NCBI RefSeq assembly: GCF_001025155.1
Contig: NZ_AP012322.1
Location: 62,001-126,000 of the forward strand
Direction of reading: 5' to 3'
From: Bifidobacterium angulatum DSM 20098 = JCM 7096
GTDB taxonomy: Bacteria; Actinomycetota; Actinomycetes; Actinomycetales; Bifidobacteriaceae
DNA: 64,000 nt
Part shown: piece after piece, positions 35,300 through 42,567 of the stretch
Layout of the letters: each line of letters opens with the position of its first letter
Numbering within the stretch: the stretch's first letter is position 1
Made by a program: the position numbers and the translations under genes
Notes under the pieces: model-generated
What the model saw: only the letters and a program-made list of their open reading frames with translations
The model's database searches: none
What the model was told of the DNA's origin: nothing

Positions 35300-36083
35300 A
35301 TGAATGATTTCGTGCGTCCGGGCATCGACGATCGCCCAGACTACGACAAGGCGCTAACGGATGAGCAGAGCCGCTGTCGGATTCCTGGTAATCGGCATTT
35401 GGCCGAAGGAACAGTCCAACGTGGACGAGCCGCGTGCCGAAATGAACATCAAGAACATCCTCAAGGCGTTCATTCCGCCGGTCGGCAAGGGCGCCCGCAA
35501 CTTCTACTACGCACTATTCGGACGACTGATGATGGTTGCCGGCTATCAGATGATCACCGGCTACCAGCTGTACATCATCAAGTACTACACGCTATCCGAC
35601 TCCGGTCTCGATGCCAATGGTTTGAAGCTTAAAGCCGCCAGCATCGTCGCCACCATGTCCGTGATCACCATGGTGGTGTCGCTACTCGCCGCCTTCACCG
35701 CAGGCCCGATCTCCGACCGTCTTGGCATGCGTAAGATTCCCGTGGCGGGAGCCTCCGTATTGTTCGCCATCGGTGCGGCCATGCCATGGATCTTCCACAA
35801 TGCGATAGGTATGTATCTGTTCGCCGCCATCGCAGGCTTCGGCTACGGCGTCTACAATGCCATCGACCAGGTGCTGAATATCTCCGTGCTGCCGAACCCC
35901 GCCGAAGCCGGCAAGGACCTGGGCGTGCTCAACATGGCCAATACACTGTCTTCCGTGCTGGGATCCGCATTGACCTCCGCATTGGTCATGATCACCGGCA
36001 ACTATGCGCTCGTGTTCCCGGCTTGCATCATCGTGGTGCTTATCGCCGCGTTCCTCATCATGCGCATCAAGGGCGTGAAGTGA
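35300..36083 (+). pseudogene. Disrupted MFS sucrose-type permease (internal deletion and frameshift)
   Basis: The gene starts at ATG 35300 with an N-terminus MNDFVRPGIDDRPDYDKALTDEQ that matches the start of the intact permease at 36374 (YVRPGIDDRPDYDKALSKED). After about 23 codons the frame changes near 35365-35375, and the rest, from FLVIGIWPKEQS to IMRIKGVK, is only the C-terminal six-helix half of an MFS transporter. The first half is missing, so an internal deletion and a frame change destroyed it. The C-terminal fragment has an ATG at 35361 without a ribosome-binding site. Its place after sucrose phosphorylase suggests it was the sucrose importer of that operon. Confidence 0.85.
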
Positions 36084-38007: not shown

Positions 38008-38024
38008 TGTTCACATAGTGAACA
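38008..38024. promoter_or_regulatory. Operator-like palindrome upstream of the leader peptide
   Basis: TGTTCAC-ATA-GTGAACA is a perfect inverted repeat, 98 bp before the leader-peptide start. A 15-of-17 match recurs at 39951-39967 before ilvC-1. Confidence 0.65.
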
Positions 38025-38121
38025 CCTGGTAGATACTGCGGGAAACGGCTCCTATGGTCATATCGCAGTTCGGATGGAAATCCGAAAAGAAAACTTCGAA
38101 ACCGAAAGGAGGTTCGCCACG

Positions 38122-38190
38122 ATGACTGGATTCAATGCGCTCGCACTGCTGTCCGCACGAATTATTATCCCGTCTTCGTTGGCGGACTGA
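38122..38190 (+). CDS. Ile/Leu leader peptide (attenuation control)
   Basis: The 22-residue peptide MTGFNALALLSARIIIPSSL plus AD has three consecutive isoleucine codons (ATT ATT ATC) and four leucines. An ideal ribosome-binding site AAAGGAGG (38105-38112) precedes it by 9 nt. The last third of its coding sequence (CTTCGTTGGCGG, 38174-38185) is exactly complementary to 38212-38223, and a rho-independent terminator follows. This is the layout of ribosome-mediated attenuators of branched-chain amino acid genes. The regulated gene is the MHS transporter at 38396, with ilvC genes beyond. It is too short to appear as a normal gene call. Confidence 0.8.
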   Translation: MTGFNALALLSARIIIPSSLAD

Positions 38191-38274
38191 TTCGGCATAC
38201 AAGCTTGAGCCCCGCCAACGAAGGCAGGGCGGCAAGCGAGAATCTTGAAGCCCTGCACAGTGCGGGGCTTTTTT
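38174..38274 (+). promoter_or_regulatory. Transcription attenuator (alternative hairpins and terminator)
   Basis: Segment 1 (38174-38185) pairs with segment 2 (38212-38223), 12 bp. Segment 2's continuation GCAGGGC (38224-38230) can instead pair with GCCCTGC (38250-38256), which blocks the terminator. The terminator stem is 38248-38256 with 38262-38270, loop ACAGT, then a run of six T (38269-38274). Ribosome stalling at the Ile codons would favour the antiterminator, so transcription continues when charged tRNA-Ile is low. Confidence 0.75.
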
Positions 38275-38395
38275 GTTGCCCGCCCACAAGGCGCATGCAG
38301 CGAAAACAAGCAGCAACGAAGAAACACGCCACAGCGTGGGTGACCGGTCAGAAGGGGCCGCCCACACCAGAGAATGAGTAAGAAGGGCATTCCTC

Positions 38396-39748
38396 ATGAC
38401 TGCAGCCGATACGACTACGTCCGGCAAGCTGAAATCAATGGCTCGCGATTCGGTCAAAACCGTTATCGCCGCCTCGATGGTCGGTACCGCCATCGAATTC
38501 TACGACTTCTACGCGTACGGTACCGCCGCTGCGAACTACTTCCCGAAGGTCTTCTTCGGCGACACCGCCAACCCGACCGTCGCCCTGCTGGCCAGCTTGC
38601 TGACCTTCGCCATCGCCTTCATCGCCCGCCCGCTCGGCTCCCTGGTATTCGGTCATTTCGGCGATCGTATGGGCCGCAAGACCACGCTGGTGGTCTCCCT
38701 GCTCACCATGGGCGTCGCCACCTTCCTGATCGGCTGCCTGCCGACCTACGACCAGTGGGGCATCGCAGCAGTCGCAGTGCTGTGCCTGTGCCGCTTCGTA
38801 CAAGGCATCGGCCTGGGCGGTGAATGGTCCGGCGCTGCGCTGGTCGCCACCGAAAACGCTCCGGAAAGCAAACGTGCGCTGTACGGCTCCTTCCCGGAAC
38901 TGGGCGCCCCGATCGGCTTCTTCCTGTCGAACGGCACCTACTTCCTGCTGGAAACCTTCAACGATGACGATGCCATGCTCGCATGGGGATGGCGCGTGCC
39001 GTTCCTGCTGTCCGCAATCCTCGTAATCGTCGGCCTCGTCGTTCGCGTCCAGATGGAAGAAACCCCGATCTTCCGCCTCGCCCAGGAACAGAAGAAGGTC
39101 GTCAAGTCCCCGCTGACCGAAGTGTTCAAGAAGAGCTGGAAGCAGGTGCTGCAGGCCACCTTCCTGGTAGCCGTCACCTACACGCTGTTCTACACGCTCG
39201 CCACCTGGTCCCTCGCCTGGGGCACCAAGAGCACCGAACAGGGTGGCGGCAGCCTCGGCTTCGCCAATCAGGAATACCTGCTGATGCTCATGATCGCCGT
39301 GTGCGTGTTCGCCGCATTCATCGTGATCTCCTGCGTGAACGCCGACAAGTTCGGCCGCAAGCGCGTGATCATCATCTCCTCCTGCTGCCTCGTCGCATTC
39401 GCACTGCTGTTCCCCTACCTGCTTGACCCGGCAGTCGTCGGCCAGCGCAACTTCGCAGCCAACCTGCTGTTCCTGTGCCTCGGCTTCGCACTCATGGGCA
39501 CCGCATTCGGCCCGATCGGCGCGTTCCTGCCCGAACTGTTCGACGCCAACGTGCGCTACTCCGGCTCCGGCATCGGCTACAACCTGGCCGCCATCGTCGG
39601 CGCGGCATTCGTACCGACCATCGCCACCTGGCTGTCGCACAACTGGGGCGTGCACTCCGTTGGCCTGTACCTCTGTGTGATGGCACTGTGCTGCCTCGTC
39701 GCGGTGCTGAGCTGCAAGGAGACGAAGGACGTTGATTTCACTAAGTGA
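38396..39748 (+). CDS. MHS-family MFS transporter (metabolite:H+ symporter)
   Basis: This 450-residue, 12-helix protein belongs to the metabolite:H+ symporter group of the MFS (ProP/ShiA type). It shows ASMVGTAIEFYDFYAYGT in helix 1, GHFGDRMGRKTTLV as the signature loop, and GIGLGGEWSGAALVATENAP in helix 4-5. Family substrates include organic acids, betaine and proline. The Ile/Leu attenuator upstream and the ilvC genes downstream suggest a branched-chain amino acid or 2-keto acid precursor as cargo (inference). The stop codon is inside a 25-bp palindrome (39731-39755). Confidence 0.88.
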   Translation: MTAADTTTSGKLKSMARDSVKTVIAASMVGTAIEFYDFYAYGTAAANYFPKVFFGDTANPTVALLASLLTFAIAFIARPLGSLVFGHFGDRMGRKTTLVVSLLTMGVATFLIGCLPTYDQWGIAAVAVLCLCRFVQGIGLGGEWSGAALVATENAPESKRALYGSFPELGAPIGFFLSNGTYFLLETFNDDDAMLAWGWRVPFLLSAILVIVGLVVRVQMEETPIFRLAQEQKKVVKSPLTEVFKKSWKQVLQATFLVAVTYTLFYTLATWSLAWGTKSTEQGGGSLGFANQEYLLMLMIAVCVFAAFIVISCVNADKFGRKRVIIISSCCLVAFALLFPYLLDPAVVGQRNFAANLLFLCLGFALMGTAFGPIGAFLPELFDANVRYSGSGIGYNLAAIVGAAFVPTIATWLSHNWGVHSVGLYLCVMALCCLVAVLSCKETKDVDFTK

Positions 39749-39755
39749 AATCAAC
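39731..39755. repeat. 25-bp palindrome over the stop codon of the MHS gene
   Basis: Arms GTTGATTTCACT and AGTGAAATCAAC flank a single A. The right half (TTCACYAAGTGAAATCAACGGC, given here in its 16-bp exact part AAGTGAAATCAACGGC) recurs at 39847-39862. Confidence 0.7.
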
Positions 39756-39829: not shown

Positions 39830-39950
39830 GGACGGCTCCGTTCACCAAGTGAAATCAACGGCAGATTCGTTAAAGACTTCGCCTGAATAAGGCAAGACAT
39901 AACTGAAAAAACAACTGAAAAATAACTCAATATCCATAACTAAAATTGGG

Positions 39951-39967
39951 CGTTCACGTAGTGAACA
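39951..39967. promoter_or_regulatory. Operator-like palindrome upstream of ilvC-1
   Basis: CGTTCAC-GTA-GTGAACA matches the palindrome at 38008-38024 in 15 of 17 positions. It is part of a larger inverted repeat, GGGCGTTCAC/GTGAACACCC (39948-39970). The rest of the 364-bp gap to ilvC-1 is AT-rich and holds no gene or visible leader peptide. Confidence 0.65.
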
Positions 39968-40112: not shown

Positions 40113-41165
40113 ATGGCAGCAACTATCTGGTACGAAAAGGACGCCGATCTCTCCGTGTTCGAAGGCAAGAAGGTCGCCGTTATCGGTTACGGTTCCCAGG
40201 GCCATGCCCATGCCCTGAACCTGCGTGATTCCGGTGTGGATGTCGTCGTCGGCCTGCGTCCGACCTCCAAGTCCGTGGAGTACGCCAAGGAGCAGGGTCT
40301 GGAAGTCCAGTCCGTCGCCGATGCCACCGCTGAGGCCGATGTCGTGATGATCCTGCTGCCCGATCAGTACCAGGCAGCCGTGTACAAGTCCGAAATCGAG
40401 CCGAACCTGAAGCCGGGTGCTGCTCTGGCCTTCGCTCACGGCTTCAACATCCACTACGGCTACATCAAGCCGAGCGAGGATCACCCGGTGTTCATGGTCG
40501 CCCCGAAGGGCCCGGGCCACATCGTGCGTCGTGAATACACCAACGGCCGTGGTGTGCCGGTCGTCGTCGCCGTGGAGCAGGATCCGGACGGCAAGACCTG
40601 GCCGCTGTGCCTGGCTTACGCCAAGGCTCTGGGTGCTCTGCGTGCAGGCGCCATCAAGACCACCTTCACCGAGGAGACCGAGACCGATCTGTTCGGCGAG
40701 CAGGACGTGCTCATGGGTGGCATCAACCACCTGTGCGACATGGGCTTCGATGTGCTGACCGAGGCCGGCTACCAGCCGGAGATCGCCTATTTCGAGGTGT
40801 TCCATGAGCTGAAGATGCTCGTCGACCTGGCTAACGAAGGCGGCCTGAACAAGGCCCGTTGGTCCTGCTCCGACACCGCCCAGTACGGCGATTACACCTC
40901 CACCGTCATCACCGAAGAGACCAAGAAGCGCATGCAGTACCAGCTCAAGCGCATCCAGGACGGCTCCTTCGCCAAGGAGTTCATGGATGACCAGGCCGCC
41001 GGCGCTCCGAAGTTCAAGAAGCTGCAGGAAGAGTACAGCCACCCGCACCTGGAGACCGTTGGCCCGAAGCTGCGCGCCATGTTCTCCTGGAACAACCAGG
41101 TGGATGCCGATGCCGATATGGCCGAGTCCTTCAACGGCAAGATCGCTCGTACCCAGGTTCAGTGA
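40113..41165 (+). CDS. ilvC: Ketol-acid reductoisomerase, copy 1
   Basis: This 350-residue class I (short) enzyme performs the NADPH-dependent isomerisation and reduction of 2-acetolactate or 2-aceto-2-hydroxybutyrate in valine, leucine and isoleucine synthesis. The N-terminal Rossmann domain shows [21 protein letters not shown] and the cofactor loop GLRPTSKS; the knotted C-terminal domain carries the Mg-binding stretch [10 protein letters not shown] and later the EVFHELKML region. The ribosome-binding site AAGGAG lies just upstream. It is followed by its own terminator and a second, nearly identical gene. Confidence 0.95.
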
Positions 41166-41232: not shown

Positions 41233-41517
41233 GCGTTGTGTGGGGGTGTGCGGTCAGGTCGACCGCCGACTGTGCTGCGGGGAACATAGGGAGAAGGGCG
41301 TAGGGGTAGTACTACGGTGTCGGTGCGGCGCTGGCAGTGACTTCGGCTGTGATATGGCTCACGTTGTGGACGGAGACGGGACTGGGGGAGCATTGCCGGT
41401 AGGATAGTGCCCAGTTTTGAAGGACAAAATCCTTCACAAGACGAATAATCTGCAAACAGTAGATACCCCGGCACATAGTGCCACACCCCACTACATATAA
41501 AAGGAGTGCCAATTACC

Positions 41518-42567
41518 ATGGCTGCACAAATCTGGTACGAGAACGACGGCGATCTCTCGGTCCTCGAAGGCAAGAAGGTTGCCATCATCGGTTACGGTTC
41601 CCAGGGTCACGCCCACGCGCTGAACCTGCGTGATTCCGGTGTGGACGTCGTCGTCGGCCTGCGCCCGACCTCCAAGTCCGTCGAGCATGCCAAGGAGCAG
41701 GGCCTGGAAGTCAAGTCCGTTCCGGAAGCCGCCGCCGAAGCCGACGTCATCATGATCCTGGCTCCCGATCAGTACCAGCGCAACATCTGGAAGAACGACA
41801 TCGAGCCGAACATCAAGCCGGGCGCTGCCGTTGCCTTCGCCCACGGCTTCAACATCCACTACGGCTACATCAAGCCGAGCGAGGATCACCCGGTCTTCAT
41901 GGTCGCCCCGAAGGGCCCGGGCCACATCGTGCGTCGTGAGTACGTGAACGGCCGTGGCGTGCCGGTCGTCGTGGCCGTCGAGCAGGATCCGCGCGGTGAC
42001 GCATGGGCTCTGACCCTGGCTTACGCCAAGGCTCTGGGTGCCCTGCGTGCAGGCGCCATCAAGACCACCTTCAAGGAAGAGACCGAGACCGATCTGTTCG
42101 GCGAGCAGAACGTGCTCATGGGCGGCGTGAACAAGCTCGTCGAAATGGGCTTCGAGGTCCTCACCGACGCCGGCTACCAGCCGGAGATCGCCTACTTCGA
42201 GGTGTGCCACGAGCTGAAGATGCTCGTCGACCTCATGAACGAAGGCGGTCTGAACAAGGCCCGCTGGTCCTGCTCCGACACCGCTCAGTACGGCGATTAC
42301 ACCAACACCGTCATCAACGAGGACTGCCGCAAGCGCATGGAATACCACCTGGGCCGCATCCAGGACGGCTCCTTCGCCAAGGAGTTCATCGACGATCAGG
42401 ATGCCGGCGCTCCGAAGTTCAAGGCTCTGCAGGAAGAGTACGGCAATGTGCGCATCGAGTCCGTTGGCCCGAAGCTGCGCGCCATGTTCTCTTGGAACAA
42501 CGGCAAGGACGAGGACGCCGACATGGCGACCTTCAACGGCAAGATCGCTCGTACCCAGGTTCAGTGA
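41518..42567 (+). CDS. ilvC: Ketol-acid reductoisomerase, copy 2
   Basis: This 349-residue enzyme is a close paralogue of copy 1 and has the same [21 protein letters not shown] and [10 protein letters not shown] motifs. Most differences are conservative (for example EVCHELKML and LMNEGG here). Long stretches of the DNA, including the last 30 bases, are identical between copies. ATG 41518 has AAAAGGAG upstream with good spacing; GTG 41506 overlaps that site and is unlikely. It has its own promoter region and terminator, so the copies can be expressed independently. Confidence 0.95.

Follow-up and report, generated by a model that had tools for sequence, protein, structure and literature searches.

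Several ribosome-mediated attenuators responding to branched-chain amino acids (BCAAs) have been described, among them those of ilvGMEDA, ilvBN and leuABCD in Escherichia coli and of the ilv-leu operons in Staphylococcus aureus and Listeria monocytogenes (PMC6123439). In Actinobacteria, leader peptides with BCAA codons have been reported upstream of ilvB, where the known leaders overlap terminators (PMC1262725). That study, by Seliverstov et al. in 2005, included Bifidobacterium longum, for which a cbs leader and a transposase LEU-like element were reported, and the word 'transporter' occurs 0 times in the available part of its text (PMC1262725). Here we analyzed a 64,000-nucleotide stretch of the genome of Bifidobacterium angulatum DSM 20098 = JCM 7096 (NZ_AP012322.1, positions 62,001 to 126,000; hereafter the window), which is part of a single-contig genome of 2,021,974 bases. 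At 38107-38274 of the forward strand, 121 nt ahead of a gene for a transporter of the major facilitator superfamily (MFS), we found an element that is very probably a ribosome-mediated transcription attenuator sensing charged isoleucyl-tRNA, gating the transporter gene and possibly, by read-through, ilvC.

The element resembles the BCAA attenuators in its short leader with cognate codons, its mutually exclusive hairpins and its intrinsic terminator in front of genes of BCAA metabolism. Unlike in those systems, the first gene encodes a transporter and the sensor consists of just two to three isoleucine codons. Compared with the wiring known to us, it also differs in being a chain of five RNA segments, in which pairing of segments 1 and 2 (written 1:2) would go with read-through, and in having the leader stop codon within the protector hairpin. 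It shares with the actinobacterial ilvB leaders (PMC1262725) the phylum and the BCAA-codon leader peptide, but the genes downstream of the copies read are a metabolite:H+ symporter (MHS)-like gene with ilvC, a BASS-family gene or ilvC, and not ilvB. Unlike the leuA LEU element, which has a leucine run and a conserved pseudoknot, it has an isoleucine run and does not stand before leuA. No published description of the element was found in open-licence PubMed Central. Its features in the window are as follows.

38107..38112, forward strand: Shine-Dalgarno sequence AGGAGG of the leader, with six of six bases in 83 of 85 orthologous loci and five of six in 2.
38122..38190, forward strand: open reading frame (ORF) of the leader peptide, MTGFNALALLSARIIIPSSLAD*, 22 codons, from the sequence and the comparison of orthologues.
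38158..38194, forward strand: leader (protector) hairpin P1, made of 38158-38164:38188-38194, which includes the stop codon, and 38170-38174:38181-38185 (96.6% and 100% of alignment cells paired).
38161..38169, forward strand: sensor codons ATT ATT ATC, from the comparison of orthologues.
38174..38185, forward strand: segment 1, the last leader codons, pairing with 38212-38223 (pairing kept in 94.4% of cells, with two-sided changes at 5 of the 12 pairs).
38209..38223, forward strand: segment 2, with partners in segment 1 (through 38212-38223), segment 3 (38209-38216) and segment 5 (38209-38215), by alignment pairing counts.
38223..38230, forward strand: segment 3, pairing with segment 2 in the central hairpin (84.7% of cells) or, through 38224-38230, with segment 4 in the antiterminator (96.0%).
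38250..38256, forward strand: segment 4, right arm of the antiterminator and left arm of the terminator, by alignment pairing counts and helix energies.
38262..38274, forward strand: segment 5, the terminator right arm (38262-38268) and U tract (38269-38274), with a terminator in 84 of 85 loci.
38396..39748, forward strand: MFS transporter, MHS-like, 450 aa, by family profile searches.

The initial annotation, made from the letters of the window, had proposed an isoleucine/leucine attenuator here. The parts it named (the AGGAGG site, the 22-codon ORF, the ATT ATT ATC run, both pairings and the terminator) are all at the positions it gave. We searched for the transporter in 112 genomes of the genus, 98 of which gave some match, and read the upstream regions of 85 orthologous loci (73-100% identity; one broken and one cut by a contig end) and of five paralogues at 55-57% identity, which were left out of the orthologue counts. 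The leader core CGAATTAT[T/G]A was present in all 85 orthologous loci. A start codon with at least five of the six AGGAGG bases and a frame open to the isoleucine run was found in frame 0 in 85/85 loci, in frame +1 in 3/85 and in frame +2 in 0/85, and this frame test indicates that the leader ORF is probably translated. The first two sensor codons are ATT ATT in 82 of the 85 loci and ATT ATG, as part of ATT ATG ATT (Ile-Met-Ile), in the other 3; the third is ATT in 40, ATC in 14 and AGC in 31. ATT is a minor isoleucine codon within the same MHS genes (132 ATT versus 1549 ATC, with 4 ATA). The leader therefore holds a candidate sensor cluster for one amino acid, and it lies at a suitable distance from segment 1. 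Leucine as a second signal was ruled out, since the leucine codons are not kept across orthologues, so that only the isoleucine half of the original proposal stands. The part of the leader before the isoleucine run ranges from 8 to 34 codons and, by eye, is little conserved except for a frequent MTG or MNG start. The kept features are therefore the isoleucine codons and the pairing segments.

We then analyzed the pairing of the segments. In the window, 38174-38185:38212-38223 is a perfect helix of 12 bp and 38224-38230:38250-38256 a helix of 7 bp, while the central hairpin 38209-38216:38223-38230 holds one C-A mismatch. The first two, named in the initial annotation as mutually exclusive, are neighbours that can coexist, and together they form the read-through state. 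The exclusion lies elsewhere: the terminator excludes them, as do P1 and the central hairpin, neither of which had been mentioned, and the opposite, termination state consists of P1, the central hairpin 2:3 and the terminator 4:5. The locus thus combines mutually exclusive helices, as in an attenuator, with an intrinsic terminator that has a U tract. The fold of 38110-38280 had a z-score of -5.18 against 200 dinucleotide shuffles, none of which (0) was equally stable. The helix energies in the window are -14.1 kcal/mol for 3:4, -13.7 for 4:5, -13.7 for 2:3, -20.9 for 1:2 and -12.5 for the leader hairpin, and are thus balanced. In the free transcript 38110-38274, the terminator and 2:3 each have a probability of 0.92, that is, termination is favoured, whereas the minimum-energy fold of 38110-38280 is the long antiterminator; the two states are predicted to be close. 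In addition, TTCGCC at 38113-38118, between the leader Shine-Dalgarno sequence and the start codon, is complementary to GGCGGA at 38181-38186 in segment 1, and CGCC stretches akin to it are, by eye, frequent at that place in relatives. This pairing is a possible additional default-off structure.

The two sets of helices were then counted in an alignment of 68 distinct elements, obtained from the 84 with a terminator by one scoring rule after removing 4 duplicates and 12 elements in which a long insert separates segments 3 and 4. The aligned rows are related, and the changes are not independent events. In the read-through (ON) set, 1:2 and 3:4, 95.0% of 1276 cells were paired, 8 of 19 pairs were changed on both sides, and 38 cells were changed on both sides, where shuffles gave 14.2 +/- 2.9 and slid controls 1 to 12. 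In the termination (OFF) set, P1, 2:3 and 4:5, the corresponding values were 93.4% of 1954 cells, 8 of 29 pairs, and 57 cells as against 19.1 +/- 5.6 and 8 to 21; its further pair types were equalled by 5 of 500 shuffles. Examples of such changes, in alignment columns, are GC to AU at terminator pair 127:149 (9 rows), UA to CG at segment pair 29:81 (7 rows) and CG to UA at leader hairpin pair 19:34 (6 rows). Covariation exceeds the controls on most measures for both helix sets. Conservation of the isoleucine run and the stems, one of the two points on which the proposal could have been refuted, came out in its favour (core in 85/85 loci; helix sets paired at 93-95% in 68 elements). On sequence comparison, the leader, its isoleucine codons, the terminator and both helix sets may be regarded as established.

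From these parts we infer where the ribosome would stall, in what order the RNA would fold and how the element would respond to isoleucine. With ample isoleucine, the ribosome would reach the stop codon and cover segment 1, 2:3 and 4:5 would form, and transcription would end. Without translation, P1 would sequester segment 1, and termination would follow likewise. When isoleucyl-tRNA is scarce, the ribosome would halt at ATT ATT and open P1, and most of segment 1 would stay free just ahead of it. Segment 1 would then pair with 2, and 3 would be freed to pair with 4 before 5 is made, so that no terminator forms and the transporter gene is transcribed.

We mimicked the ribosome by deleting the transcript as far as 15 nt beyond the first base of the P site and folding the truncated RNA at equilibrium. 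When the 3' end was placed directly behind segment 4, antiterminator pairing averaged 0.81 over the 84 loci with the ribosome at the first isoleucine codon (Ile1), 0.80 at the second (Ile2) and 0.74 at the third sensor codon. In the window alone, the same folding gave 0.73 at each of the three codons, 0.18 at the stop codon and 0.58 without a ribosome. Pairing at Ile2 exceeded that at the stop codon in 83 of 84 loci and that without a ribosome in 83 of 84; for Ile1 the counts were 80/84 and 78/84. In a codon-by-codon scan of 42 of the 84 loci, the maximum was at Ile1 and Ile2 (0.81 and 0.80), and the value fell from 0.74 to 0.59 one codon past the third. The sharp feature in this model is the predicted loss of antitermination once the ribosome passes the isoleucine run.

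Several observations weigh against this interpretation. In the folding, mean antiterminator pairing is still 0.51 at the stop codon and 0.60 without a ribosome; it is already 0.76 a few codons upstream, so that the rise to 0.81 at the isoleucine codons is small, and it climbs back to 0.80 at positions beyond the stop codon. With the complete terminator, stall and stop are alike (0.46 at Ile2 and 0.49 at the stop codon), and the choice would therefore have to fall during RNA synthesis, under kinetic control. In the leaders, 31 of 85 have just two isoleucine codons and 3 have Ile-Met-Ile. In the alignment, 17 of 68 rows lack pair 28:82 of helix 1:2, 53 of 68, the window among them, have a mismatch at internal pair 77:90 of helix 2:3, and two of five measures for the read-through set (pairs changed on both sides and further pair types) were equalled by 100 and 104 of 500 shuffles. 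Locus L058 has the hairpin without a U tract, and by eye two second copies before ilvC (L139 and L140, see below) have no clear U tract. Altering candidate regulatory codons had no effect in the Streptomyces coelicolor ilvB leader (PMC1262725). Expression data with versus without isoleucine were not found in the open-licence literature searched, and the published inductions described below arose under acid, oxygen or a sugar source, not isoleucine starvation.

The alternative that survives best keeps the attenuator and changes its wiring, which we consider possible but doubtful. The antiterminator would be a long hairpin 2:5 with 3:4 nested in it, and 1:2 would be an off structure; the off state would be a leader hairpin extended by pairing of CCCGU (38169-38173) with segment 3, and a stalled ribosome would block this extension. 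The 2:5 pairing is indeed kept in 95.6% of 476 cells (7 changed on both sides as against 2.6 +/- 1.3), the minimum-energy fold of 38110-38280 is this long antiterminator, and RNAalifold on the 68 rows extends 1:2 into segment 3 with the terminator still paired. However, 2:5 requires segment 5, which is made last, and the drop in antiterminator pairing past the third codon and the keeping of P1 and 2:3 suit the five-segment chain better. It is improbable that a partly effective terminator sets a constant ratio of transporter to ilvC, with stress induction coming from a promoter dyad: there is indeed a dyad (38008-38024) ahead of a -10-like box, with similar ones in most of the 28 loci printed, but the near-invariant isoleucine codons and two alternative covarying sets of folds would be left unexplained.

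Still less probable is arrest by the nascent peptide, in which the conserved end ARII[I/S]PSSLAD would stall the ribosome together with a small-molecule co-inducer rather than through isoleucyl-tRNA starvation. From CGA to the stop codon, 77 of 85 leaders have 10 codons, and this stretch is similar in most leaders, but it overlaps P1 and segment 1, which accounts for its conservation. Moreover, the remaining 8 leaders have a 9-codon end of different sequence (for example RIIISPSAS), and the shortest variants of the preceding part leave as few as about nine residues in the tunnel. A metabolite-binding riboswitch or T-box with a terminator and an incidental ORF, which the strong covarying RNA structure would fit, is the least likely of all, given the frame test with its Shine-Dalgarno sites and an Rfam scan of the window in which only a tRNA reached the gathering score and nine matches at E up to 5 were all well below theirs.

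The ribosome-mediated, isoleucine-codon attenuator in front of a transporter is thus supported by sequence conservation and covariation. We next analyzed its distribution. A covariance-model search of the 112 Bifidobacterium genomes returned the element in 87, namely the 85 with an orthologue plus G008 and G050. The count is 87 rather than 97 because ten genomes with only 22-27 bit hits were set aside; four such hits were read (L131-L134) and lack the leader core, appearing by eye to be ends of other genes with a terminator. The weak hits in G003, G010 and G045 (22.9-23.8 bits) were likewise excluded. In the B. angulatum genome the element is single copy, with no further copies found. In a sample of the order, 12 of 248 genomes matched at E <= 0.001, all within the same family, under strict filters with which weak matches can be lost. 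In other genera of the family 12 regions were read, and each carries the core CGAATTATTA ahead of an ORF that by eye is MHS-like, with ilvC next or farther away. Among the five MHS paralogues, an Ile-rich leader was seen in two upstream regions (L086, CGAATTATTA; L085, CGAATTATC) and not in the other three; one of these two leaders, in G050, ends RIITAIIRIITKPSMAE.

The element was originally described as controlling a transporter instead of ilv genes. The transporter does come first, but ilvC is the next gene in 83 of 85 loci. In one exception (L087) the transporter gene is cut off by the end of its contig, and its second half lies with ilvC on contig C17 of that genome; in the other (L038), ilvC is on another contig. 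All 85 genomes with an orthologue possess ilvC, as do 14 of the 27 without one, while 13 lack it (E <= 1e-60). Related leaders also precede ilvC itself. In G050 a related leader lies directly before ilvC, at 320 nt, with no transporter between. G160 and G177 have a second, weaker copy (L139 and L140; 46 and 49 bits), with RIIS in the leader. It precedes ilvC by 318 and 296 nt and follows the first element at a distance of about 5 and 9 kb. Sugar genes stand between MHS and ilvC in these two genomes: by eye, one resembles sucrose phosphorylase, and L140 has additional genes of sugar type.

A second transporter family was found under a related leader. In G008, G050 and G111 a leader copy precedes a BASS-family transporter (PF01758 above cut-off); G008 and G050 have no MHS orthologue, whereas G111 has both transporters, and its BASS copy has ATG ATT ATT in place of ATT ATT. 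Among BASS orthologues, a leader within 330 nt was present in 3 of 30 loci read and absent in 27 (58 genomes have a BASS match). The protein scored 239.5 against the PanS model (cut-off 400) and 250.9 against TIGR00841 (cut-off 326.3), below both cut-offs. A BASS/PanS homologue of Neisseria binds pantoate (PMC10645422).

In the window, the MHS-like gene is followed by two ilvC genes and a LacI-type gene. The other features of the region are as follows.

38008..38024, no strand: dyad TGTTCACATAGTGAACA, a candidate operator; by eye, most of the 28 loci printed (of 85) have a similar dyad in this position.
38053..38058, forward strand: -10-like TATGGT; by eye, many of the 28 loci printed (of 85) share a CCTATNNT-like box at this position.
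38070..38087, forward strand: 5' hairpin TTCGGAT-GGAA-ATCCGAA, whose stem by eye (uncounted) differs yet stays complementary in several relatives.
40113..41165, forward strand: first copy of ilvC, ketol-acid reductoisomerase, by family profile searches.
41418..41436, forward strand: stem-loop TGAAGGACAAAATCCTTCA upstream of the second ilvC, a recurrent ilvC leader motif.
41518..42567, forward strand: second copy of ilvC, by family profile searches, with ATG at 41518 and GTG at 41506 also open.

Transcription would be expected to start near 38065; a promoter scan picked other hexamers, at 38010-38037. Dyads of the type TTCAC-NN-AGTGAA had 8 strand matches (4 places) in the window versus 0.54 expected. 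They lie at 38008-38024, in the attenuator promoter, and at 39737-39749, 39841-39853 and 39953-39965, at the end of MHS or in the gap between MHS and ilvC, and are candidate operators of some regulator. By eye, a related dyad lies a few hundred nt before a cysteine synthase-like gene at G000:C1:559220. Elsewhere in the window, at 35361-36083, a 240-aa MFS ORF that adjoins sucrose phosphorylase covers about half of the MFS_1 profile and looks like a truncated transporter.

The ilvC stem-loop has the loop ACA[A/C]AAT and a covarying stem. Of 83 loci, 61 have it within the 500 nt that follow MHS and 15 inside the attenuator (L017, L021, L066 and others), and 73 have it in one or both of these places; the controls gave 3 and 0 in reversed sequence and 1 in the reverse complement of the gap. 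It also lies upstream of ilvC in 13 MHS-less genomes read, twice as ACAGAAT. In G001-G010, 15 of 21 hits to GGACAMAATCC were 60-222 nt ahead of an ilvC start. The stem-loop is perhaps an RNA signal for ilvC.

To characterize the transporter, we compared it with family models. Like the MHS transporters, whose models include the shikimate transporter, ProP and the tricarballylate transporter TcuC, it matches TIGR00883 over its full length. Unlike them, its score of 412.9 bits is under the curated cut-off of 443.45, and it is far below the listed equivalog cut-offs, so the MHS label of the initial annotation applies loosely. The protein is assigned to Pfam Sugar_tr and MFS_1. Its best match of solved structure is partial, to a phosphate transporter (4.7e-10). 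The closest named relatives are from Bifidobacterium erythrocebi (98%), B. pongonis (96%) and B. merycicum (94%), in a search that may omit the protein's own species.

Published expression data exist for a likely orthologue. During acid adaptation of B. longum BBMN68, BBMN68_1264 was up 16.86-fold, with substrates called not clear by the authors, ilvC2 (BBMN68_1263) was up 7.08-fold, and ilvD, ilvE, leuA, leuB and leuC were up 2.18 to 4.65-fold (PMC3517610). Glucose has been suggested as a substrate of BBMN68_1264 (PMC3517610, PMC6244367). Under oxygen, the table values were 2.06 and 2.07 for BBMN68_1264 and 1.55 and 1.28 for ilvC2 (PMC6244367). An adjacent MFS-ilvC pair of B. pseudocatenulatum (0087, 0088) was up on lactulose oligosaccharides (PMC4850155), and ilvC of B. 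animalis ssp. lactis was up in stationary phase (PMC8876546). The printed primers for BBMN68_1264 land in the orthologues and give the printed 190 bp product, with <=3 mismatches in total in 17 of 90 loci. In the locus taken as B. longum (L042) they have the same spacing and 6 mismatches in 40 bases, more than expected within a species. From the primer position, the product size and the neighbouring ilvC locus number, BBMN68_1264 is probably the B. longum orthologue.

The most likely role of the transporter is to import something that relieves isoleucine shortage, and the MHS-like and BASS transporters would both serve isoleucine supply. As a first guess, which we hold at somewhat under an even chance, the imported substrate would be branched-chain 2-oxo acids or their relatives. 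The earlier idea of a branched-chain amino acid or keto-acid carrier has become likelier, as a plausible role and not an established one. More tentatively still, the locus may represent an unassigned uptake of branched-chain 2-oxo acids, in which MHS-like and BASS/PanS-like transporters are interchangeable under one isoleucine-sensing element that also stands before a parted ilvC. The Bifidobacteriaceae would then have a five-segment attenuator class of their own, accompanied by an ACA[A/C]AAU stem-loop specific to ilvC, which in some species lies inside the attenuator.

To our knowledge, proven attenuators are few in this phylum, and the element would add a family-wide, covariation-supported attenuator with unusual wiring. 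It suggests a testable function for a transporter that 85 of the 112 Bifidobacterium genomes encode. That related leaders stand before ilvC as well as before members of two transporter families unrelated to each other may offer a direct handle on the identity of the substrate.

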